Shown here piece by piece: positions 45,338 through 57,519 of a DNA stretch of 64,000 nt. Made by a program: the position numbers and the translations under genes. The number at the start of each line of letters is the position of its first letter. The stretch's first letter is position 1. The notes beneath the pieces were generated by a model, which was not told the DNA's origin, ran no database searches, and saw only the letters and a program-made list of their open reading frames with translations. Origin of the DNA: Chitinophagaceae bacterium (GTDB lineage Bacteria > Bacteroidota > Bacteroidia > Chitinophagales > Chitinophagaceae); contig JAHBTL010000019.1 in assembly GCA_019638615.1 (NCBI GenBank), forward strand, positions 59,092-123,091. The letters run 5' to 3'.

Positions 45338-46858
45338 TTAAAACAGCCCGGTTGCCTTCAATAAAATTTTCAAACTCCAGATCACCACCATAATTCCCAC
45401 GCAAATGAACATGGTTTTGGTAGGGAGTTTTCCGGCAAGGCGCGCCGCCAGCGGAGCAGCAACAACACCTCCAATGATCAGCCCCACGATCACCTGCCAG
45501 TGGCTTACACCGATCATTGTAAAAAAGGTGAGCGCGCTCGCAAGTGTAACAAAGAATTCGGTAATGCTTACCGAACCGATAACGAACCGCGGGCTGCGTC
45601 CTTTGGAAATAAGAGTGCTGGTTACGAGAGGACCCCAGCCTCCGCCGCCGAATGAATCAAGAAATCCGCCGGCGCCGGCCAGCCATCCTACACGTTTTAC
45701 TTTTTTAGGTTTGTTGTTCTTTTTGCGGAAGGCAATGATCAGTATGCGCAAGCCCAGCAGCATGGTATAGGTGGCAATAAGCGGGCGGATATAATTTCCA
45801 TACGTTTCTCCAAATTTTGACAGGAGGAAAGCGCCTAATACAGCGCCTGCTATACCAGGTATAAGCAAGGCTTTGAATAATTTTTTATTTACATTACCGA
45901 ATTTATAGTGACTGTAACCTGAAGCGCCGCTGGAAAACATTTCGGCGGTATGTATGCTGCCGCTGATAGCGGAAAGGTTCACCCCCAGGGACATTAGTAC
46001 CGTAGTGGATACAACGCCATACCCCATGCCCAATGCGCCATCTACCAGTTGTGCCATAAAGCCTGCGGCTATCATCCAGTAAAACTTTTGATCTATACTT
46101 TCAAAGCCGGTTCGGATCGTATCGGCCAGGCTGCTGAGCGGCAAATAGGAGAGTATGAAATACCCCACGAACATAAAGAAGAAAGCAAACAGGCACCAGG
46201 TAGCTATGCGCCGCCACTTTTTTTCCCCGTTGCCTTTTTCGTCATAGCCGGTTTTCAGCGAAAGGGTCTTGGTGATGTGATTCAGCTCCTGTACCTTCTT
46301 TGCAAAATTCCCGTTCATTTTTCTTCGTATCACTTCCATGTTGTCCAGTACTTCATCCAGTTCTTCAGGTAATACTTCGTTCAGCACTTCTTTTATTCTT
46401 TTGGCGATGGTAGGTGATTTGCCATTGGTAGATACAGCTACTTTTAAATTTCCTTTTTTTACAATAGAGCCAAGATAGAAATCACACAATTCAGGCGTAT
46501 CTGCTACGTTCACCAGTAAGCCGCGTTTCCGTGCATCTGCTTTAACCTGCTTTCCGAGTGATGGATCATCTGCCGCAACAATTACGATATCTATATTGCT
46601 TAAATGATGTTCCGAATAGGGCTCTTCTATAAGAAGAATATTTTCGTGACGATCCCCAATGGCACGTACAGCATCGCTCAATTGGGTGGCAACAAGCGTG
46701 ATATTTGTTGCAGGCGCATTCGATAATACCGCATTCAGCTTTTCGGTACCTACATTTCCCCCGCCGATGATCAGCAGCCGCAATTGCTCCAGTTTTAAAA
46801 AAACCGGGAAGAGAAGATTCGTTTCCTTTTCCTGTATGGTTGTTGTTTCGTCTGTCAT
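45338..46858 (-). CDS. Fusion of siroheme-synthase-like precorrin-2 dehydrogenase domain with TSUP (TauE/SafE) permease
   Basis: 506 residues in two parts. Residues about 14-215 match the CysG N-terminal module: LFPVFLKLEQLRLLIIGGGN, then DIVIVAADDPSLGKQVKADA, TPELCDFYLGSIVKKGNLKV and AVSTNGKSPTIAKRIKE, an NAD-dependent dehydrogenase that with ferrochelatase activity turns precorrin-2 into siroheme. Residues about 225-506 form an eight-helix TSUP carrier (GFMAQLVDGALGMGYGVVST, GFLDSFGGGGWGPLVTSTLI), a family that moves sulfite, sulfonates or similar anions. It closes the sulfur-assimilation gene run, where siroheme is needed by CysI and the carrier could move sulfate or sulfite. Confidence 0.9.
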   Translation of the reverse strand: MTDETTTIQEKETNLLFPVFLKLEQLRLLIIGGGNVGTEKLNAVLSNAPATNITLVATQLSDAVRAIGDRHENILLIEEPYSEHHLSNIDIVIVAADDPSLGKQVKADARKRGLLVNVADTPELCDFYLGSIVKKGNLKVAVSTNGKSPTIAKRIKEVLNEVLPEELDEVLDNMEVIRRKMNGNFAKKVQELNHITKTLSLKTGYDEKGNGEKKWRRIATWCLFAFFFMFVGYFILSYLPLSSLADTIRTGFESIDQKFYWMIAAGFMAQLVDGALGMGYGVVSTTVLMSLGVNLSAISGSIHTAEMFSSGASGYSHYKFGNVNKKLFKALLIPGIAGAVLGAFLLSKFGETYGNYIRPLIATYTMLLGLRILIIAFRKKNNKPKKVKRVGWLAGAGGFLDSFGGGGWGPLVTSTLISKGRSPRFVIGSVSITEFFVTLASALTFFTMIGVSHWQVIVGLIIGGVVAAPLAARLAGKLPTKTMFICVGIMVVIWSLKILLKATGLF

Positions 46859-47020: not shown

Positions 47021-48688
47021 TTAAACCCACCCGATCCGCATTGCAAAATCCCCAAATGTTTCTTCCGGCCGGCGGTCTTTGCTATAAGTTTTCAACAGCC
47101 CGTCAAGCTCTTCCAAGATGGCTTCTTCCCCCAGGCTTTCTTTGTATAGTTTGTTCAATCGCATACCTGCTCTGTCTCCACCGATCTGTAAATTATAAAA
47201 GCCGTACGATGTGCCGATAAAGGCAATTTCGGCGGCATAAGGTCTCGCACAGCCATTCGGGCATCCTGTCATACGTACGCTGATGTTGTCATCATCCAGC
47301 CCGTATTTATGCATAATAGGCTCCATCTTGCTCAGCAGTGCAGGCAGGTAACGCTGCGCTTCCGCAAGCGCAAGAGGACATGTATTGAATGCTACACACG
47401 AAATAGACTCTTTGCGCAGGGGAGTGGCTTGCTCTGTTTGTTTGATAATGCCATATTTATCCAGTATGGCATGTATTTCCGCTTTGTCTTTTTCATTTAC
47501 ATCCGCTACAATAAGATTCTGGTTACAGGTAAACCTGAAATTGGTTTTACGCAGCAATGCTATTTCAAGAAAAGCCGTTTTTAGCGGGAGGTCTTCATCA
47601 TCGTGCACACGGCCGTTTTCAATAAACGCGGTATAGTACCATTTCCCTTCATGATTTTTATGCCACCCGTAAAAATCGGTTCTGCCGGTGAACTGGTAGG
47701 AGCGTTCAGGCTCCAGTGTAAATCCGCAACGTTTTTCCAGTTCCGCTTTAAAAGCTTCCACCCCCATATTATCGAGTGTATATTTAAGGCGCGATAGCTT
47801 TCTGTCGCTGCGGTTGCCAAAGTCGCGCTGCACGGTGATCATTTCATAAACCGCCTTGTACACTTTTTCACCCGCGGGCACAAAGCCAAGTACTGTTCCC
47901 AGGCGCGGATAAGTTGCCGGGTTCCCATGGGTGGCTCCCATTCCTCCGCCGGCAAGAATATTAAAGCCTGCCAGCTTACCTTTTTCTTCAATCGCTATCA
48001 GCCCGCAATCATTGGCAAAAACATCCACATCATTGGTAGGCGGAATAGCAATGCCGATTTTGAATTTGCGCGGCAGGTACCTGTCCTGGTAGAGCGGATC
48101 ATTTTCCGCTGTTTTGTCTGCAAGAGGTTTTTCATCCAGCCATACTTCATAGTAGGCTTTGGTTTTGGGCTTGGCCAACTGGCTTAACCCGTGTGAATAT
48201 TCAAATATTTCCTCGTGCAGCGAAGAAAACTTGGGATGTGCGGCACATATTACATTCCTGTTTACATCGCCGCAGGCGGAGATGGAATCCAGTTTAGCGG
48301 TATTAAATGCCTGGATAGTGGGTTTTACATGCGATTTCAGAATACCATGCAATTGCACGGTTTGGCGGGTAGTGATTTTAATTACGCCGGTTGTGTGGGC
48401 GCCGGCTATATGGTGCAACGCTTCCCATTGTTCAGCGGTGATGAAACCACCCGGTATACGCAGGCGGATCATAAATGAATACAGCCATTCCAGCTTTTTG
48501 GCGCTTCTTTCTTCTCTTCTGTCGCGGTCATCCTGCTGGTACATACCATGAAATTTCACCAGGGCGCGATCGTCTTCACGGATAGCGCCGGTTATTTCAT
48601 CTTTTAAGCTTTCTTTTAAAGTACCCCGTAAACCGTCGCTTTTCATTTTAATATGCTCGGTAGACGACAGGTTATTTTTTTCAGACAT
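47021..48688 (-). CDS. cysI: Sulfite reductase hemoprotein (beta) subunit
   Basis: 555 residues. It reduces sulfite to sulfide with six electrons using a coupled siroheme and [4Fe-4S] cluster; the electrons come from CysJ, encoded just upstream. The cluster and siroheme ligands are visible as CVAFNTC (C-x5-C) and GCPNGC (C-x3-C), near residues 425-475. Substrate-side arginines lie in TTRQTVQLHG, and GDVNRNVICAAHP is typical of the family. The length and the N-terminal EHIKMKSDGLRGTL fit NADPH-dependent assimilatory enzymes. A 121 bp low-complexity spacer separates it from cysJ. Confidence 0.95.
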   Translation of the reverse strand: MSEKNNLSSTEHIKMKSDGLRGTLKESLKDEITGAIREDDRALVKFHGMYQQDDRDRREERSAKKLEWLYSFMIRLRIPGGFITAEQWEALHHIAGAHTTGVIKITTRQTVQLHGILKSHVKPTIQAFNTAKLDSISACGDVNRNVICAAHPKFSSLHEEIFEYSHGLSQLAKPKTKAYYEVWLDEKPLADKTAENDPLYQDRYLPRKFKIGIAIPPTNDVDVFANDCGLIAIEEKGKLAGFNILAGGGMGATHGNPATYPRLGTVLGFVPAGEKVYKAVYEMITVQRDFGNRSDRKLSRLKYTLDNMGVEAFKAELEKRCGFTLEPERSYQFTGRTDFYGWHKNHEGKWYYTAFIENGRVHDDEDLPLKTAFLEIALLRKTNFRFTCNQNLIVADVNEKDKAEIHAILDKYGIIKQTEQATPLRKESISCVAFNTCPLALAEAQRYLPALLSKMEPIMHKYGLDDDNISVRMTGCPNGCARPYAAEIAFIGTSYGFYNLQIGGDRAGMRLNKLYKESLGEEAILEELDGLLKTYSKDRRPEETFGDFAMRIGWV

Positions 48689-48809: not shown

Positions 48810-50513
48810 CTAATATACATCCAGCAAATACCTTCCTTCTTCTTTTAGCTTTTCAATAAATGCAATGGCGTCGGGAATGGATTTTCCACCCTGCCTTTCT
48901 ATGATCTGCAATAGTGCATTTTCCACGTCATTGCTCATGGGGAATTTAGCACCGCACACATAAACGTATGCTCCGTTGTCTATCCATTTCCATAATTCTT
49001 CCGCGTGTTCAAGCATACGGTGCTGCACATATATTTTGGATTTCTGGTCCCTCGAAAATGCAAGATTTACCTTGCTTAGCACACCCGTGTCGGCCCAGTT
49101 CTGAATTTCAGTCTGGTACAGGAAATCGGATGTGAACTTCTGGTCGCCAAAAAACAGCCAGTTGCGCCCGGTAGCACCGGTAGCATCTCTTTCTGCTATA
49201 AAAGAGCGAAAAGGTGCGATGCCCGTCCCGGGGCCGATCATGATCACATCTTTATCAGCGGCCGGTAATTTGAACTGGGAATTTTTATGGATATAGAAAT
49301 CAATAACGGAATCGACCTTTAATTGCGAAAGATAATCAGAGCACAAGCCGGATTTTGTTTCATTATTTACGTTAAACCTGTCAAGCGCAACGGTTATATG
49401 CACTTCGCCGCTATGCGCTTCAGGAGATGATGAAATAGAATACAACCTGGGTGCTATCGGCTCCAGTATGTTGATTACCTGCTCAAACTGGGCGGCATCT
49501 TTTACGGGATAAATTCGCAAAAGGTCCAGCAGATCGATGCGGGTATCAGGTATTTCCTGCTGCACTATGGAAGCGTATTGCTTTACTACCCGCTCAGGCA
49601 AATGAACAATGTTGATTTTTTTTGTAAGCGCTTCGGCTATGGTATACCGTTCGTTCCTGAATTCAACAGATGTTTCGCCGTCTGCACCGGTAAGCGCCAG
49701 TATATTATCAACGGTTTCTTTTTTGTTATGCGGAATGATGCCGAGGGAGTCGCCGGGTTCATAAGCTACTTCTTCTTCGGATGCAATTTCCAGGTGATAG
49801 GTTTGCTTGTTGGAATCCCTGTCGTTGAGGTTGATATTGGTTAGAATAGTGCCGGTATAATTTTTTTTGCCTTTGGCTTTTTTTGCCGGAACGGGAGAAG
49901 CGTTGCCGCTGCCCCCATCGCTCAGCGATCTCATTACCTGCACGAACCAGGCAGCAGCGTCTTCGGCATAATCAGTGTCGCATTTTTGTAATGGAACAAT
50001 GCGTTTAGCGCCGAGTTTTGCAAGCTGGGCGTCAACGTCTTCTCCTGCTTTACAAAACAGGGGATAAGATGTATCACCCAAAGCCAGCACACTGAATTTT
50101 ATTTTTTCAAGATTGAGCGATTGCTGGTGAATATGGTCATAGAATTTTTTAGCGGTAACCGGCGGTTCTCCATCTCCCTGCGTGCTGATCACCAAAAAGA
50201 GATACTCTTCCTTTGCCAGATCGTTGAGACGGTATTGATCGAGCGAGGTCAGCTTTACATTAATGCCGCTCTTTTTTGCCTGCCCGGCAAACTCGGTGGC
50301 TACTTTTTTGGAATTACCTGTTTCTGTTCCGAATAATATTGAAATTTTGTTCACTTTGGGCGCAGCGGGAGCGCTTGCGGTAACCGGTGTGCCACTACCA
50401 GCATTCGATGCCGAAACAAGCCCGGCAAGGAAACCATTCATCCATATCAATTCCTCGCGGGAGGATTGAGTAACAAGATCCTGGAATGCTTTTAGTCTAT
50501 GCTCTGCTAACAT
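48810..50513 (-). CDS. cysJ: Sulfite reductase flavoprotein (alpha) subunit
   Basis: 567 residues from ATG 50513 (MLAEHRLKAFQDLV); longer frames run into cobA. It passes electrons from NADPH via FAD and FMN to CysI. The flavodoxin domain begins SILFGTETGNSKKVATEF (about 50-67) and has STQGDGEPPVTAKKFYD. The FAD domain has APRLYSISSSPEAHSGEVHI, and the NADPH domain MIGPGTGIAPFRSFIAERD and CGAKFPMSNDVENALL, ending RYLLDVY. The start overlaps the end of cobA by 17 bp, which suggests coupled translation. Confidence 0.95.
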   Translation of the reverse strand: MLAEHRLKAFQDLVTQSSREELIWMNGFLAGLVSASNAGSGTPVTASAPAAPKVNKISILFGTETGNSKKVATEFAGQAKKSGINVKLTSLDQYRLNDLAKEEYLFLVISTQGDGEPPVTAKKFYDHIHQQSLNLEKIKFSVLALGDTSYPLFCKAGEDVDAQLAKLGAKRIVPLQKCDTDYAEDAAAWFVQVMRSLSDGGSGNASPVPAKKAKGKKNYTGTILTNINLNDRDSNKQTYHLEIASEEEVAYEPGDSLGIIPHNKKETVDNILALTGADGETSVEFRNERYTIAEALTKKINIVHLPERVVKQYASIVQQEIPDTRIDLLDLLRIYPVKDAAQFEQVINILEPIAPRLYSISSSPEAHSGEVHITVALDRFNVNNETKSGLCSDYLSQLKVDSVIDFYIHKNSQFKLPAADKDVIMIGPGTGIAPFRSFIAERDATGATGRNWLFFGDQKFTSDFLYQTEIQNWADTGVLSKVNLAFSRDQKSKIYVQHRMLEHAEELWKWIDNGAYVYVCGAKFPMSNDVENALLQIIERQGGKSIPDAIAFIEKLKEEGRYLLDVY

Positions 50514-51348
50514 GTGCTTTCTTATTATGGTTGATATTGCTTTGTAATGATGCCATGGGTTTGAAATACTGTTCGCGTACAGATGCATTGGCAAGCCAGG
50601 CAAACTGTTCGTGCAGCGCTACTACTTTACCTACGATCACCAGCGATGGGGAAATAAAGCTGTAGCCTTCAAACTTGTTGGTAAACTCATATATGCCCGA
50701 AGTATGTACCTGTTGCAATGGGGTAGTTCCCTGTTCTATAACGGCTATGTGCCTGTCTTGCGCAACCCCGTAACGGATCAGCTTTGATACGATGCCTTCC
50801 ACGGTTTCGGCAGACATGTAAAATACGAGCGTATCGCTGGTGCGGGCCAATTCTTCCCAATACTGATCGGGTACTATATCCGACTTATAATAGGTAAGCA
50901 GCCGGACGGCCGTAGCGTAACCTCTGGCGGTAAGCGGAATGCCTGCGTAGGCGGCAGCGCCCAACGCAGCCGTTACGCCCGGTACAATTTCGTATGGAAT
51001 ATTGTTTTGAATCAACACCTGTAATTCGTCAAGTATGTTGGAGAAGATAGAAACGTCGCCTCCTTTCAGCCGTACAACCAGCTTGCCCTGCTGCGCAAAT
51101 TGTACCATCAGTTCATTGATGGTTTCCTGCGGGGTTGAATTGCCGCGGCGGCATTGTTTGCCTACATAGATCACTTCGGCCGCAGGATTGACGTAGCGGT
51201 TTAAAATTTCGGGACTCACCAGTCGATCCGTTAACACAATATCGGCGGTTTGCAGGCAGCACGCGGCTTTCATGGTTATTAATTCAGGATCACCCGGACC
51301 CGCTGCCGCCAGTATTATTTTGCCTTGTATGTTGTTCGCGTTGCTCAT
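50497..51348 (-). CDS. cobA: Uroporphyrinogen-III C-methyltransferase (SUMT)
   Basis: 283 residues. It methylates uroporphyrinogen III twice with SAM to give precorrin-2, the siroheme precursor. Signatures are LAAAGPGDPELITMKAACCL (near the start), ADIVLTDRLVSPEIL, VRLKGGDVSIFSNILDEL and PGVTAALGAAAYAGIPLTARG. Only the methyltransferase domain is present; the CysG-type dehydrogenase half is in the fusion protein at 45338-46858, so siroheme synthesis is split between two genes at the two ends of the cysJI pair. cobA lies 24 bp after cysE and overlaps cysJ. Confidence 0.95.
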   Translation of the reverse strand: MSNANNIQGKIILAAAGPGDPELITMKAACCLQTADIVLTDRLVSPEILNRYVNPAAEVIYVGKQCRRGNSTPQETINELMVQFAQQGKLVVRLKGGDVSIFSNILDELQVLIQNNIPYEIVPGVTAALGAAAYAGIPLTARGYATAVRLLTYYKSDIVPDQYWEELARTSDTLVFYMSAETVEGIVSKLIRYGVAQDRHIAVIEQGTTPLQQVHTSGIYEFTNKFEGYSFISPSLVIVGKVVALHEQFAWLANASVREQYFKPMASLQSNINHNKKAHVSRA

Positions 51349-51372: not shown

Positions 51373-52161
51373 TTATTGTAAAGTGCTGCTCTGTTCAACA
51401 AGCGTATTCTTTGGAACGCTTTTGGTCAGCCACACATTTCCGCCTATCGTACTTCCTTCTCCTATTACCGTTTCTCCGCCCAGTATGGTGGCGCCTGAAT
51501 AGATGATCACATTGTCTTCAATGGTAGGATGGCGCTTGCCATCTGCTTTTTCCCTGGAGGCGCTCAATGCTCCAATTGTCACTCCCTGGTATATCTTTAC
51601 ATTTTTACCGATAATGGTAGTTTCTCCTATTACGATGCCTGTGCCATGATCAATAAAAAATGATTCACCGATGGTAGCGCCGGGATGAATGTCTATACCT
51701 GTTTTGCTGTGCGCAAATTCCGTAATCAAACGTGGCAATATTTTTACCCGCTGTTTCCACAACTGGTTAGATAAACGGTATATGGCTATTGCATAAAAGC
51801 CCGGGTAAGCAACAATCACTTCCTCTACCGATTCTGCTGCGGGATCGTATTGAAGTATGGCCTCAGCATCTTTCAAAAGTGTGTTGTAGATGCCGGGTAT
51901 AGCGGCAAAAAAATCGTCGGCCACCGATTGCGCTTTCTTTCCGTCGCGCACCACCTCATACACCAGTGTGGAAAGATGGCTTTTCAAAGATTCAAAAGCT
52001 TTCTCCAACTCATATTGGTTTTGCTGCCGGAGCGTAGCCGGAAGAAACAACAGGTTGAACAGCTCGTCAATAAACAGCTTAGCCAGTTCCCGGTCCGGGA
52101 AAGCCAGGAAAGTTTTGCTTTTTCTTTCCTCCAGTTGCTGTATGAATTTTTTCTGCGACAC
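51373..52161 (-). CDS. cysE: Serine O-acetyltransferase (EpsC-type)
   Basis: 262 residues. It makes O-acetylserine from serine and acetyl-CoA, the carbon skeleton for cysteine. The N-terminal half is helical (DRELAKLFIDELFNLLF, AEAILQYDPAAESVEEVIVA), and the C-terminal half is a left-handed hexapeptide helix (GIDIHPGATIGESFFIDHGT, GIVIGETTIIGKNVKIYQGV, DNVIIYSGATILGGETVIG). The His in IDHGTG is the catalytic site of the family. There is no O-acetylserine sulfhydrylase gene in the window; it must be elsewhere, or MetY shares the role. Confidence 0.92.
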   Translation of the reverse strand: MSQKKFIQQLEERKSKTFLAFPDRELAKLFIDELFNLLFLPATLRQQNQYELEKAFESLKSHLSTLVYEVVRDGKKAQSVADDFFAAIPGIYNTLLKDAEAILQYDPAAESVEEVIVAYPGFYAIAIYRLSNQLWKQRVKILPRLITEFAHSKTGIDIHPGATIGESFFIDHGTGIVIGETTIIGKNVKIYQGVTIGALSASREKADGKRHPTIEDNVIIYSGATILGGETVIGEGSTIGGNVWLTKSVPKNTLVEQSSTLQ

Positions 52162-52230: not shown

Positions 52231-53475
52231 CTACTGTATCATACACGCTCCCACCGTTACATTGCTTGTTTCGTCGATCAATATGACGCCTCCATTGGCT
52301 CTTAAGCTTTTATAGCTGTCGTACACTACCGGCTGGGCGGTTTTAATTACGGCTTTTACAATATCATTCAAACCTGCCTGCTCGGGTCCGAATTTTTTTT
52401 CCAGCGAGTTTACATCCAGCCTGTATTCAATATCTTTCACCACGCTTCTGACCCGTGTGCTGTTAATTTGCAGCAAATATTTATTGCCGGGAATAAGCGG
52501 CTTGTTATCCATCCAGCACAACAATACCTCTATTTCTTTTTCGGTTTTGGGTAAGTCATTGTTCAGCACAATTACATCGCCGCGACTGACATCAATATCA
52601 TCCTGCAGGTGTATCACCGCAGCTTGCGGCGCAAATACCTCGTCTGCCTGTTTGCCTCCGTCGGTTTCAATGGCGGATATCACGCTGGTTGCGCCCGATG
52701 GTAAGATGGTAACGGCATCTCCTTTTTTATAAATACCACTGATCACTTTGCCCGCGTATCCCCTGTAGTCATGCAATGCTTCAGTTTGGGGACGGATAAC
52801 GTATTGCACCGGGAAACGAGCTTTATGGAGATTGATCGCTTTTTCTACTTCCACTGTTTCCAGCAGGTGTAGAAGCGATTCGCCTTCGTACCATGAAAGC
52901 GCGGTTGATTTTTCCACAATATTATCGCCATTCAATGCACTGATGGGGATATAGGTTACATCTTCCAGGCCCAATGCTTTCGCCAGGTCGGCATACTCAA
53001 TTACAATGTTGTTGTATATGTCCTGTGAAAAGCCTACCAGGTCCATTTTGTTGATCGCAACAATCACCCTGGGCATATTAAGCAGCGATGCGATGATGGA
53101 ATGCCGGCGTGTTTGTTCAGCAACGCCATTGCGGGCGTCAATCAGTATAATAATAAGATCCGAATTGGAGGCGCCGGTAACCATATTGCGGGTGTATTGT
53201 ATATGCCCCGGCGCATCGGCTATAATAAACTTGCGTTTAGGCGTAGCAAAATATTTGTAAGCTACATCAATGGTAATGCCCTGTTCACGCTCGGCGCGCA
53301 AACCGTCGGTAAGCAGCGCCAGGTCTATCTCGCCGTCTTCTCGGTTTTTAGTCTGCTTCTCAATAGCTTCCAACTGGTCTATCATTATACTCTTGCTGTC
53401 GTACAATAAGCGACCGATCAGGGTGCTTTTCCCATCGTCCACACTTCCCGCAGTTATAAATCGTAGTATGTCCAT
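52231..53475 (-). CDS. cysN: Sulfate adenylyltransferase large subunit (GTPase)
   Basis: 414 residues. With CysD it makes adenosine phosphosulfate (APS) from ATP and sulfate, driven by GTP hydrolysis. GTPase motifs are G1 GSVDDGKSTLIG (about 10-21), G3 DAPGHIQYTRNM and G4 NKMD, with the switch region REQGITIDVAYKYF. Domains II and III follow (FPVQYVIRPQTEALHDYRGY). The protein ends after domain III; the APS kinase (CysC) domain that is often fused to CysN in other bacteria is absent, in line with an APS reductase downstream. Confidence 0.95.
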   Translation of the reverse strand: MDILRFITAGSVDDGKSTLIGRLLYDSKSIMIDQLEAIEKQTKNREDGEIDLALLTDGLRAEREQGITIDVAYKYFATPKRKFIIADAPGHIQYTRNMVTGASNSDLIIILIDARNGVAEQTRRHSIIASLLNMPRVIVAINKMDLVGFSQDIYNNIVIEYADLAKALGLEDVTYIPISALNGDNIVEKSTALSWYEGESLLHLLETVEVEKAINLHKARFPVQYVIRPQTEALHDYRGYAGKVISGIYKKGDAVTILPSGATSVISAIETDGGKQADEVFAPQAAVIHLQDDIDVSRGDVIVLNNDLPKTEKEIEVLLCWMDNKPLIPGNKYLLQINSTRVRSVVKDIEYRLDVNSLEKKFGPEQAGLNDIVKAVIKTAQPVVYDSYKSLRANGGVILIDETSNVTVGACMIQ

Positions 53476-53598: not shown

Positions 53599-54507
53599 TT
53601 AAAAATACCCGTTCTTCTTCCTGTCTTCCATTGCCGCTTCCGATACCTTATCATCAATTCTTGTTTCGCCTCTTTCGCTGGTTTTGGTAGCAATGATTTC
53701 GGTAATGATATCGTCAAGTGTAACAGCGTTAGATGCGACTGCCGCGGTGCAGGTCATATCACCTACCGTGCGGTAACGCACCTTTTTATTTACAATAACA
53801 TCTGTATCGTCTATGCGTATGTATTCGGATACCGCTACATACTGTCCTTCGTATTCGAGCACTTCTCTTTCATGTGCGAAGTAGATGGAAGGAAGGGCGA
53901 TCTTTTCACGGCGGATATAGTTCCATACATCCAGTTCCGTCCAGTTGCTGATGGGGAACACCCTTACATTTTCACCTTTGTTGATTTTGCCGTTGTAGGT
54001 GTTCCATAATTCCGGGCGCTGCTTTTTGGGATCCCATTGTCCGAATTCATCCCGTACAGAAAAGATCCTTTCTTTCGCTCTGGCCTTTTCTTCATCCCTG
54101 CGTGCGCCGCCGATGCAGGCATCAAATCCAAATTCTTCTATTGTATCCAGTAAAGTATAAGTCTGCAGTTGGTTACGGCTGGCAAATTTTCCTTTTTGTT
54201 CGGTGAGTTTTTTTGTCTTTATAGTATCCTCTACCAGTCTTACCACCAGCTTTTCACCAATGCTTTCCGCCAGTTGATCCCGGAATTGCAATGCTTCCGG
54301 GAAATTGTGCCCGGTATCAATATGTACCAGGGGAAAGGGAAATTTCCCCGGGCGAAAAGCTTTCAATGCCAGGTGGACCAATACAATAGAATCTTTTCCC
54401 CCGCTGAACAGCAAAGCCGGTTTTTCAAACTGTCCCGCCACTTCACGAAAAATGTGAATGGACTCCGATTCCAGCTCGTCTAGATAATCCAGGTGATGTA
54501 CGCTCAT
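53599..54507 (-). CDS. cysD: Sulfate adenylyltransferase small subunit
   Basis: 302 residues of the PP-loop (ATP pyrophosphatase) family. It carries out the adenylyl transfer that makes APS, together with CysN. The PP-loop is ALLFSGGKDSIVLVHLALKA (about 32-51), and further motifs are FPLVHIDTGHNFPEALQFRD, CIGGARRDEEKARAKERIFS, SNWTELDVWNYIRREKI and the C-terminal GETRIDDKVSEAAMEDRKKNGYF, which is typical of CysD. It is separated from cysH by 45 bp and from cysN by a 123 bp spacer. Confidence 0.96.
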   Translation of the reverse strand: MSVHHLDYLDELESESIHIFREVAGQFEKPALLFSGGKDSIVLVHLALKAFRPGKFPFPLVHIDTGHNFPEALQFRDQLAESIGEKLVVRLVEDTIKTKKLTEQKGKFASRNQLQTYTLLDTIEEFGFDACIGGARRDEEKARAKERIFSVRDEFGQWDPKKQRPELWNTYNGKINKGENVRVFPISNWTELDVWNYIRREKIALPSIYFAHEREVLEYEGQYVAVSEYIRIDDTDVIVNKKVRYRTVGDMTCTAAVASNAVTLDDIITEIIATKTSERGETRIDDKVSEAAMEDRKKNGYF

Positions 54508-54552: not shown

Positions 54553-55284
54553 TTAATTCTTCACTTCTTCATGTACATGCAATCCGCATTCTTTCTTCGA
54601 TGCGTCTTCCCACCACCAGCGCCCGGCCCGGAAATCTTCACCCGGGCGAATGGCTCTTGTGCAGGGTGCGCAGCCTATACTTACAAAACCTTTATCATGT
54701 AAAGGATTATAGGGTATTTCATTCTTGTTAATGAAAGCGATCGTTTCATCGGTTGTCCAGTGCAGGATCGGGTGATACTTTACCACGTTATTCACCCCGT
54801 CCCATTCCAACTGCTGCATATCGTGCCTGTTAGGCGAATGCTCGGCGCGTATACCGGTGATCCATACTTTCTTTCCTTTCAACGCCCGTTGCAGGGGTTC
54901 CACCTTGCGTATGTGGCAGCACTGCTTACGGTTCTCAACCGATTCATAAAAGCTGTTAGGGCCTTTCTGTTCAATGAATTGCTGAAGCGAAAGACTGTCG
55001 GGATAAAAAGCGGTGATCGGGTGATTGTATTTTTCCAGCGTGCGGCTCCAGGTAGAATAAGTTTCAGGAAACATACGGCCTGTATCCAAAGTAAAGACCT
55101 GGATATCCAGGTTTTCGCTGAATATGATATGGGCGATCGCCTGATCTTCCCAACTGAAGCTGGTGGAGAAAACAACCTGTCCCGGGTAGCTGTTCGCAAT
55201 GTTCTTTAAACTTTGAGCGATATTGGTCTCGCCGACGAGCCGGGAAATTTCCTGAATATCTCCGGTGAGCGTTGTTTGAGTCAT
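54553..55284 (-). CDS. cysH: Adenylyl-sulfate (APS) reductase, thioredoxin-dependent
   Basis: 243 residues. It reduces the activated sulfate to sulfite, with thioredoxin as donor. The PP-loop-like region is SFSWEDQAIAH, followed by VFTLDTGRMFPETY. The paired cysteines of the [4Fe-4S] type are present, RKQCCHIRKVEPL and SIGCAPCTRA, which mark enzymes that use APS; PAPS reductases lack them. The catalytic cysteine is in the C-terminal KKECGLHVHEE. So PAPS and an APS kinase are not needed, which fits the lack of cysC here. It is the first gene of the run and sits behind a polycysteine leader ORF. Confidence 0.93.
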   Translation of the reverse strand: MTQTTLTGDIQEISRLVGETNIAQSLKNIANSYPGQVVFSTSFSWEDQAIAHIIFSENLDIQVFTLDTGRMFPETYSTWSRTLEKYNHPITAFYPDSLSLQQFIEQKGPNSFYESVENRKQCCHIRKVEPLQRALKGKKVWITGIRAEHSPNRHDMQQLEWDGVNNVVKYHPILHWTTDETIAFINKNEIPYNPLHDKGFVSIGCAPCTRAIRPGEDFRAGRWWWEDASKKECGLHVHEEVKN

Positions 55285-55331
55285 AATCCGTTGAAATTGA
55301 TGGGGAGTTTGAGTTTCTTGTCAGGCAACCT

Positions 55332-55350
55332 GCCTGCTTTCAAAGCAGGC
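55332..55350 (-). promoter_or_regulatory. Perfect 19-nt palindrome in the cysH leader (candidate attenuator hairpin)
   Basis: GCCTGCTTTGAAAGCAGGC on the minus strand, with 9-bp arms around one base (the loop must open by a few pairs in RNA). It begins 4 nt after the stop of the polycysteine ORF and ends 47 nt before the cysH start. The next bases give a competing hairpin, CAGGC-AGGTT-GCCTG (55322-55336), sharing the CAGGC arm. No T-run follows, so control of translation or RNA stability is likelier than termination. Confidence 0.55.
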
Positions 55351-55354
55351 CGTA

Positions 55355-55393
55355 TCAGCAACAACAACAGCAGTATATATCTATTTTCACCAT
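55355..55393 (-). CDS. Polycysteine leader peptide ahead of cysH (MVKIDIYCCCCC)
   Basis: A 12-codon ORF, ATG 55393 to TGA 55357-55355, encoding MVKIDIYCCCCC. Five consecutive cysteine codons (TGC TGT TGT TGT TGC, 55372-55358) end right at the stop. It lies about 27 nt downstream of the transcription start implied by the promoter element at 55428-55435 and 70 nt upstream of cysH. A strong palindrome follows 4 nt after its stop. Five cysteines in 12 codons is very unlikely by chance, and the gene behind it starts sulfate reduction. A ribosome short of Cys-tRNA would pause on this run and change folding of the leader. Similar polycysteine leader ORFs control cysteine genes in mycobacteria; here the role is inferred. 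Confidence 0.75.
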   Translation of the reverse strand: MVKIDIYCCCCC

Positions 55394-55427
55394 CAAAGCG
55401 ATTTTATTACTCTATTAAATTGGTGGA

Positions 55428-55460
55428 CAAAGATAGTATCTAATTTTCAATCTTCCGAAA
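55428..55460 (-). promoter_or_regulatory. Putative promoter of the cys operon
   Basis: On the minus strand, TATCTTTG (55435-55428) is an exact TAnnTTTG -7 element. The -33 region about 21 nt upstream is TTTCG (55460-55456), a near match to TTTG. It would start transcription near 55420. Confidence 0.55.
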
Positions 55461-55485
55461 GTTTGCCTGAACAATTTTGATTTTT

Positions 55486-55518
55486 TTTGATTATTAACAG
55501 ATTTTACTATTACCTTTG
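55486..55518 (+). promoter_or_regulatory. Putative promoter of the SAM riboswitch transcript
   Basis: TTTG (55486-55489), 21 nt, TACCTTTG (55511-55518). It starts transcription about 12 nt before the riboswitch's first stem and is divergent from the cys promoter 50 bp away. Confidence 0.65.
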
Positions 55519-55537
55519 CGCCAGTTCTTTAATACAT

Positions 55538-55655
55538 ACTTATCAAGAAAGGCAGAGGGACTGGCCCGATGAAGCCTTGGCAACCTGTTTTGCAATCGTT
55601 TGCAATTGTAAAGCAAGGTGCCAATTCCATCACGCTATAAGCGTGACAGATAAGT
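55538..55655 (+). ncRNA. SAM-I (S-box) riboswitch aptamer
   Basis: It has the conserved S-box core: the P1 stem ACTTATC (55538-55544) with GATAAGT (55649-55655), then the AGAGGGACTGGCCC, GATGAAGCC and GGCAACC blocks of the first half and GGTGCCAATTCC of the second, with the variable stem CACGC-TATAA-GCGTG near the end. It binds SAM and switches the terminator at 55700-55735. It controls the metY-metX-hom side. Confidence 0.95.
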
Positions 55656-55699
55656 CAGACGAAAAGCTGGAATTCATAATATATTTAAGATAAAGTAGT

Positions 55700-55735
55700 A
55701 AGCTCTTCCGAAGACTTGTCGGGAGAGCTTTTTTT
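55700..55735 (+). terminator. Riboswitch-controlled terminator
   Basis: AAGCTCTTCCGA (55700-55711) pairs with TCGGGAGAGCTT (55719-55730), 12 bp with one wobble, followed by seven T. GACTTGTC (55713-55720) in its loop can instead pair with GATAAGTC (55649-55656), the 3' side of P1, giving an antiterminator when SAM is absent. Confidence 0.88.
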
Positions 55736-55979
55736 ATGCCCCTGTACCAGCAGGGTGTCTGCAAAAAAACAGTCCTTCATTTGCCGCTCAAAACCAGCAT
55801 CGTAGAAAATATAAGTGGCTGAAAATGTAAGTTAAATGAAAAAAAAGCCGGTTTACTCATACAGAGAAGCTATATGATAAATGGCAGTGTAACCGGGAGA
55901 GACAAAGAGTAAATTTGTTAGCTTCTTTTAAATGTAAAGAATAGTGAGCTTTGAAAGAAAAGAAATAACGAATAAAATT

Positions 55980-56012
55980 TTTGCAGAATGCTTTTAAAAC
56001 CTGTTATTTTTG
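55980..56012 (+). promoter_or_regulatory. Second putative promoter, downstream of the riboswitch
   Basis: TTTG (55980-55983), 21 nt, TATTTTTG (56005-56012), an exact match with the same spacing as the riboswitch promoter. Transcription would start near 56019, skip the riboswitch and read the polycysteine ORF at 56030. Confidence 0.6.
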
Positions 56013-56029
56013 TAGCGTTACGCAGTAGT

Positions 56030-56110
56030 ATGGAATTGAAACAACACACAAATAATAGGAATATATCTGCACTAACGTGTTGTTGCAGTGATTATATGCC
56101 TGTGGCATAA
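56030..56110 (+). CDS. Cys-Cys-Cys leader peptide ahead of metY
   Basis: A 26-codon ORF, ATG 56030 to TAA 56108-56110. It begins MELKQHTNNRNIS and ends ALTCCCSDYMPVA, with three consecutive cysteine codons (TGT TGT TGC, 56078-56086) as residues 17-19. It starts about 10 nt after the expected start site of the second promoter. The Cys codons lie in the 3' arm of a perfect helix: AACAACAC (56040-56047) with GTGTTGTT (56077-56084). A second perfect hairpin, TATGCC-TGT-GGCATA (56095-56109), covers the stop codon. metY begins 89 nt on. Position, Cys run and folding match a leader that senses cysteine supply, as with the leader before cysH. Confidence 0.65.
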   Translation: MELKQHTNNRNISALTCCCSDYMPVA

Positions 56111-56163
56111 ACTGTATTCACAGCTCCTCTTTGCCTATTTTTTTCTTAAATATTTTTCTTTAG

Positions 56164-57519
<1,356 letters not shown>

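Follow-up and report, generated by a model that had tools for sequence, protein, structure and literature searches.

In classical attenuators of the trp and his type, a leader ORF carries regulatory codons for the amino acid that the operon produces. For cysteine, polycysteine short ORFs of mycobacteria were reportedly described by Canestrari and others in 2020, in a paper whose title is said to call them leaderless. In the passages concerned, such mycobacterial ORFs are cited as cysteine-responsive regulators (PMC9094748), and the M. smegmatis case is termed translation attenuation (PMC13236596). In Mycobacterium, Propionibacterium acnes and Bifidobacterium longum, cys leader peptides have been predicted together with pyrimidine-rich spacer motifs and no terminators; Rho was suggested to act on these leaders, a prediction that the authors call rather weak (PMC1262725, passages on these leaders). 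Within Bacteroidota, amino-acid operons of F. psychrophilum have been suggested to be under leader-peptide attenuation (PMC9723704, main-text passages), and short ORFs have been noted in long 5' regions of B. thetaiotaomicron, with no cysteine leader named in the passages concerned (PMC7366714). No cysteine leader in Bacteroidota was found in the open literature, as covered by titles, the starts of abstracts and cited passages, with subscription papers mostly outside this scope.

The window analysed here (the whole 64,000-nt stretch, from a Chitinophagaceae genome of 7.18 Mb) contains a short upstream ORF (uORF), MVKIDIYCCCCC and its stop, on the minus strand at positions 55355..55393 (read from 55393 to 55355). 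Its codons, read directly from the minus strand, are ATG GTG AAA ATA GAT ATA TAC TGC TGT TGT TGT TGC TGA. A sequence-only reading of this DNA had described a 12-codon ORF with five terminal Cys codons and an immediate stop, lying between an exact TAnnTTTG element and cysH and leading a sulfate-assimilation operon. The ORF proved exact and the coordinates agree: the element (TATCTTTG, a motif match at 55428..55435, minus strand) lies 34 nt upstream of the uORF start, and the uORF stop is 70 nt upstream of cysH. The operon follows on the same strand, opening with cysH, for (P)APS reductase (54553..55284), and continuing with cysD (53599..54507), cysN (52231..53475), a cysE-like serine O-acetyltransferase gene (51373..52161), a uroporphyrinogen-III C-methyltransferase (SUMT) gene (50497..51348), a cysJ-like flavoprotein gene (48810..50603), cysI, for the sulfite reductase hemoprotein (47021..48688), and a gene in which a siroheme-synthase-like N-terminus is fused to a TauE/SafE permease (45338..46858). 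An Rfam search of 55250-56250 (E up to 1) yielded no family in the cysH leader; the sole match was RF00162, on the opposite strand at 55537-55656.

The annotation of this uORF rests on the direct reading and on its recurrence in relatives. Genes for cysH were found in 95 of 147 genomes of the window's family, Chitinophagaceae (group f1), in 192 of 395 of the phylum and in 98 of 198 of the order, the three draws overlapping. The 131 cysH loci studied comprised 94 of the 95 family genomes, 4 further family loci and 33 better-scoring loci from outside the family. Within 400 nt upstream of cysH, 38 of the 131 loci have a short ORF that starts with ATG and contains three consecutive Cys codons (CCC), namely 37 of 98 in the family, 1 of 3 in group f62 and none of 30 from seven other groups (f3, f5, f8, f10, f4, f9 and f2, with 10, 7, 5, 3, 2, 2 and 1 loci, respectively). 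When family leaders were compared with shuffled ones within 250 nt upstream, the polycysteine ORFs that the sequence-only reading would expect before cysH were borne out: Cys runs of at least three occurred in 37 of 98 leaders, whereas 50 shuffled sets averaged 0.26 (maximum 1); runs of at least four occurred in 23 of 98, with a shuffle mean of 0.02 (maximum 1). The reverse strand of the same 98 leaders had no Cys-run ORF, and the second commonest run residue in the family cysH leaders was Leu (10 observed, 4.42 in shuffles). The Cys codons persist in many genera, before genes for cysteine and homocysteine synthesis, but not at L002, one of the two same-genus relatives found: in that genome (G028) the uORF starts at the same place but reads MVMRNIQALSC before its stop, the Cys run being lost. 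By eye, the sequence after this Cys-less uORF resembles an inserted palindromic repeat.

Presence of the uORF went with the position of cysH in its operon. Among the 98 family loci, it was present at 39 of the 69 in which cysH is apparently the first gene and at only 3 of the 29 in which another ORF ends just upstream of cysH; the remaining 30 of the 69 had no Cys leader by the criteria used. For the analyses of leader anatomy a set of 42 was assembled from 37 leaders with CCC (the 38 less L150) and five with looser Cys clusters (L013, L066, L089, L106, L111), the latter admitted by patterns written post hoc, after inspection. L150, whose cysH is distant (34% identity), was left out of the 42-leader analyses but contributes to both the 37 of 98 and the first-gene comparison. 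On a quick, midpoint-rooted cysH tree, 41 of the 42 leaders fell within one group of 61 rows, and leader presence required 14 changes, compared with 35.5 for shuffled labels. When 20 family loci with a gene preceding cysH were fetched further upstream, Cys-dense uORFs lying outside long ORFs were seen in five (L334, L340, L349, L350 and L351), of which only that of L334 precedes a sulfur synthesis gene (metY). By look, an Rrf2-like gene occurs upstream of cysH in at least 12 of these 20 loci and a gene of about 211 aa in at least 13. In nine loci (L332, L337, L339, L342, L343, L347, L349, L350, L351) cysH appeared to be preceded by the gene of about 211 aa together with a short gene with an Rrf2-looking start, and no Cys leader was seen before these genes there.

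Such ORFs were also sought away from cysH. Across 80 named loci (1.18 Mb in total, some of the genomes overlapping the main sample), 11 short ORFs with CCC lay outside long ORFs; seven of them precede cysH (L201, L205, L208, L237, L238, L242) or, in L209, a sulfite-reductase-like gene belonging to that operon, while the other four (L207, L221, L228, L256) precede neither. In the window's own genome, four Cys codons gave 146 matches and three Cys codons followed by TAA or TGA gave 87; the first 30 of each, 60 loci in all, were checked. Among these, the window uORF and a doubtful case, L297, were the only short ATG ORFs outside long ones; matches L049 and L058 overlap long ORFs, and L285 is too short to judge.

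The uORFs of the 42 leaders range from 12 to 38 residues in length and contain a median of 5 Cys, encoded by both codons (163 TGT and 68 TGC in total). The Cys cluster, taken over the last 12 residues, is interrupted by other residues in 32 of 42, and Cys is the final residue in 30, with one residue after the last Cys in 8 and two in 4. All three stop codons are used, and the non-Cys positions vary even between near relatives. Since the peptide varies, the Cys codons are mixed and the clusters are broken, yet Cys stands before the stop, a nucleotide repeat is not what is conserved. The variable peptide, the use of both TGT and TGC and the Cys ending in 30 of 42 together suggest that what selection maintains is the decoding of Cys close to the end of a short ORF, rather than a particular peptide or a repeat in the DNA. 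Metal binding by short Cys-rich peptides is conceivable, and a function of the peptide itself, as a metal- or thiol-binding product or an arrest peptide, would make Cys decoding incidental. Three Flavobacterium leaders that share a longer stretch around NFARGRL (see below) would suit such a function, but in the cysH set Cys alone is kept, in peptides of widely differing length with variably broken clusters, and six Cys-leader peptides had no match in NCBIfam; an acting peptide is accordingly regarded as improbable.

Upstream of the uORF, TAnnTTTG, which we take to be the Bacteroidota -7 promoter element, was present within 100 nt in 37 of the 42 leaders (mean 5.0, maximum 9, in 50 shuffled sets). 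In these 37 the distance from TTTG to ATG is 11 to 55 nt (median 29). Because the element stands upstream of the uORF in so many leaders, the uORF is probably transcribed as part of the leader. An imperfect operator-like palindrome, GTCCACCAATTTAATAGAG, with three mismatches to GTCTAC-n7-GTAGAC, lies at 55410..55428 on the minus strand. With spacings of 7 to 10 allowed in the scan (the leaders mostly having 7), this palindrome was found near the promoter with at most three mismatches in 33 of 42 leaders (mean 1.7, maximum 4, in ten shuffled sets) and with at most two in 21 of 42 (none in shuffles), and it is a probable repressor site as judged from its sequence. In Chryseobacterium L214 an Rrf2-type gene lies directly upstream of cysH, and because of this adjacency an Rrf2 protein may be considered a candidate regulator at the palindrome. 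It could then be argued that the ORF arose by chance and that control of cysH is exerted at the promoter alone, through a regulator that binds the palindrome. The frequency of the palindrome near the promoter, the Rrf2-type gene of L214 and the sister genome G028 without a Cys run would all fit this, but a Cys-run count in family cysH leaders more than 100 times that of shuffles makes it exceedingly improbable, and promoter control and the Cys leader probably coexist.

Related leaders were found at other sulfur genes, beginning in the window itself. On the plus strand, a SAM riboswitch (RF00162, Rfam match) lies at 55537..55656, and behind it metY, for O-acetylhomoserine sulfhydrylase (56200..57519), followed by metX-like and homoserine dehydrogenase genes. 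A terminator-like hairpin with a T run was noted at 55700-55730 (plus strand), after the riboswitch, and a second promoter element follows about 275 nt past this site. In the window metY thus has, behind the riboswitch, its own promoter element (TATTTTTG, 56005..56012) and a second Cys uORF, MELKQHTNNRNISALTCCCSDYMPVA and its stop, at 56030..56110 (with a longer in-frame start at 55988), both on the plus strand; a hairpin, TATGCC-TGT-GGCATA, spans the uORF stop at 56095..56109 (plus strand). Of 26 full-length metY matches in 60 genomes, the 24 family loci with full upstream sequence were retained (L167 and L183, which are short, were dropped). In these 24, uORFs with CC were present at 16 (shuffle mean 1.22, maximum 4; reverse strand 4), with CCC at 11 (shuffle mean 0.06; reverse strand 2) and with CCM at 11 (shuffle mean 0.02; reverse strand 1). 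A stem of at least 6 bp over the uORF stop was found in 9 of the 16 metY Cys leaders, compared with 1 to 5 in ten shuffled sets; in a typical example, GTATGCC-GTAA-GGCATAC, the loop contains the stop codon. The metY uORFs of relatives were often seen to end in Cys-Cys-Met-Pro, with the stop codon in the hairpin loop. No stop-covering hairpin was found in the 13 Sphingobacteriaceae Cys leaders. SAM riboswitches were found at 13 of the 26 metY loci, and at eight (L162, L163, L165, L166, L168, L169, L173, L184) the riboswitch and a Cys-rich uORF occur together; at L176 and L179 the riboswitch is accompanied by a uORF with a mere CC.

Group f3 was taken as Sphingobacteriaceae because the leader of its locus L305 matches that of Pedobacter miscanthi (L239). 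Its operon opens with a sulfite-reductase-like (NIR_SIR) gene of 694 aa, a match to which was present in 62 of 81 f3 genomes. Among the best 30 of these loci, 13 have a CC-containing uORF whose end lies 66 to 102 nt ahead of the NIR_SIR gene (shuffle mean 0.62) and 7 have a CCM uORF (shuffle mean 0.00), and the reverse strand of the same 30 loci had no CC or CCM uORF. In 16 named loci of the Sphingobacteriaceae group, a Cys-dense uORF before the sulfite-reductase-like gene was present only in L209 and L239. In Flavobacterium, Cys-dense uORFs occur at 4 of 21 cysH loci, a count in which one genome enters twice (L157 and L250). Three of these loci (L082, L211, L225) have two short ORFs each, rich in Met and Cys, one with MMMCMCC and one with MMMCCM, the latter followed by R or Q and then by NFARGRL in all three; the uORF of L237 differs from theirs. 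Two further Flavobacterium loci that were inspected, L243 and L250, have another gene ahead of cysH; in L243 this gene is TauE-like according to Pfam.

Across the family the same order recurs: promoter element, short 5' stretch, short ORF ended by Cys, stop, mostly weakly folded spacer and cysH. On the comparative evidence, the uORF is probably a leader through which the ribosome senses the charging of tRNA-Cys. It would probably serve to switch the sulfate-to-cysteine genes on when charged Cys-tRNA runs short, and a ribosome-mediated attenuator without a terminator appears the most likely form. Genes of Bacteroidota are mostly translated without Shine-Dalgarno sequences. Transcription of the leader would start a few nucleotides after TTTG, and ribosomes would load at the uORF AUG. 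With cysteine plentiful, the ribosome would decode the Cys codons, terminate and leave; the freed uORF RNA could then pair with the cysH start region, leaving cysH poorly translated, and the untranslated C-rich spacer would expose the transcript to Rho, lowering expression of the whole operon. With Cys-tRNA short, the ribosome would stall at the Cys codons and cover the uORF RNA, so that cysH translation could start and shield the operon from Rho. That the output step consists of start-site masking with Rho polarity, and not of a terminator hairpin, is a best guess on modest statistics, to which we give nearly an even chance.

The sequence-only reading had stressed a strong palindrome 4 nt after the uORF stop, and classical transcription attenuation would use it as an intrinsic terminator. 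The palindrome is present, as an 8-bp hairpin (GCCTGCTT-TGA-AAGCAGGC, 55332..55350, minus strand), and inspection by eye also allows an alternative that overlaps it, CAGGC-AGGTT-GCCTG. The hairpin has no U run after it and is not conserved, a stem of at least 6 bp starting within 12 nt of the stop being found in only 4 of the 42 Cys leaders, and the importance attached to it did not hold. Intrinsic terminator-like sites between uORF and cysH were found in 5 of 42 leaders, no excess over the 1 to 7 in ten shuffled sets, and none was found on the minus strand over 55200-56300; taken in its entirety, the window's leader has no better a predicted fold than its shuffles (z -0.20). A terminator working through this palindrome is therefore very improbable.

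Pairing between the leader and the cysH start was examined in the 42-leader set. The uORF body paired with the cysH start region beyond expectation in a swap test (p = 0.0003, one of six such tests, uncorrected) and in z scores (mean z -0.71, p = 0.0045, one of fifteen z tests, uncorrected), and four control regions in the same z test gave p values of 0.346 or more. For the 30 nt just 5' of the Cys codons against the cysH start, p was 0.0585. Pairing of the Cys codons themselves was rejected as a general rule, both with the cysH start (p = 0.34) and with the spacer (p = 0.13, swap tests). Opening the cysH start region would cost a mean of 7.24 kcal/mol; when the 5' part was shuffled, in ten sets, the cost was 5.5 to 6.1. 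In the model, a ribosome on the Cys codons relieved this by a mean of 1.17 kcal/mol (median 0.29; shuffles 0.12 to 0.61), the relief being carried by a subset that includes L024, L106, L072, L093, L010 and L112, the first four of which have the strongest pairing. A ribosome at the stop codon gave a mean relief of 0.97 kcal/mol, so close to the value for stalling that the model hardly separates stalling from normal termination. In the window's own leader the modelled relief by stalling was -0.89, that is, none. In its predicted minimum-energy fold the cysH start region pairs with part of the Cys run, and in its predicted centroid fold with the uORF start: TTGATGG around the uORF start (55390..55396, minus strand) is complementary to CCATCAA in the cysH initiation region (55297..55303, minus strand), a pair supported by sequence and centroid structure. 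Extension of the start-site pairing to the other leader sets failed (z 0.06 for metY and -0.06 for the sulfite reductase set).

The spacers tell a similar story of partial generality. That of the window (55285..55354, minus strand) is untranslated and mildly C-rich (19 C, 14 G). In the 42 leaders the C/G ratio is 2.04, C exceeds G in 40 of 42 spacers, compared with 59 of 88 control 5' regions (drawn from the window and the cysH-centred loci, a few of which may themselves be Cys leaders), and 34 of 42 spacers fold more weakly than -7 kcal/mol. Such C-rich, G-poor sequence would suit Rho. The same Cys-tRNA sensor could thus feed a different output, Rho-dependent transcription attenuation without start-site masking, in which a ribosome stalled on the Cys codons directly alters the access of Rho to the C-rich spacer. 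The composition, weak folding and untranslated state of the cysH spacers favour this, and for cys leaders with pyrimidine-rich spacers in mycobacteria the same idea has been offered as a weak prediction (PMC1262725, in the passages concerned). Against it, a loading site that begins past the stop would not be covered by a ribosome on the Cys codons; metY regions lacking a Cys uORF are likewise C-rich (C/G 1.65, C above G in 8 of 8), whereas Sphingobacteriaceae spacers are not (C/G 0.95, C above G in 5 of 13); and the action of Rho is unreadable from sequence. As an account of the output step it is rather unlikely, and it is compatible with Cys-tRNA sensing. Because the pairing and the C-rich spacer each fail in some leader sets, sensing of Cys-tRNA charging is held with good confidence, and start-site masking with Rho polarity is kept as a working model of the output.

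As the sequence-only reading had stated, polycysteine leaders are known from mycobacteria, having been predicted in Mycobacterium and other Actinobacteria (PMC1262725, passages on these leaders). Its further suggestion of a new regulator class for the phylum is too strong, because of these actinobacterial leaders and because leader-peptide attenuation has already been suggested in Flavobacterium (PMC9723704, main-text passages). More tentatively, and at somewhat less than an even chance, Bacteroidota may hold an old, terminatorless family of sulfur-amino-acid leaders that converged with the mycobacterial one, with Cys-only leaders before cysH, Cys-Cys-Met leaders before metY and sulfite reductase genes, Flavobacterium leaders of the Met-Met-Met-Cys-Cys type in which Cys-tRNA and Met-tRNA would be read jointly, and a metY leader stacked behind a SAM riboswitch. 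If so, the metY operon would carry two independent RNA sensors of the sulfur pathway. Cys-tRNA sensing at cysH would by itself extend cysteine-sensing leaders to Bacteroidota. An RNA sensor would be paired with a promoter palindrome at cysH and with a SAM riboswitch at metY, and several dozen leaders with a common sensor and apparently no common terminator would form a testable set.

Compared with known systems, the cysH leaders share with trp/his-type attenuators the codons for the product amino acid and differ in having no conserved terminator. Like the mycobacterial polycysteine ORFs, they are short ORFs with Cys codons ahead of cysteine synthesis genes; those ORFs are described as leaderless, whereas most uORFs here appear to have a short 5' stretch, and the Bacteroidota leaders add Met-Cys variants and the metY leader behind a SAM riboswitch. 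The F. psychrophilum leaders belong to the same phylum and also to amino-acid synthesis operons, with no cysteine operon named in the main-text passages (PMC9723704). The uORFC-8-2 motif of cysS in Rhodobacterales likewise has a uORF whose tandem Cys codons are interpreted as sensing Cys-tRNA but, in the passages describing it, differs in its intrinsic terminator, its two stems, its gene, cysS, and its only two conserved Cys codons (PMC8632094). The actinobacterial cys leaders, as described in the passages concerned, have the same anatomy as the leaders reported here, with Cys codons near the stop, no conserved terminator and pyrimidine-rich spacer motifs, in a different phylum (PMC1262725).
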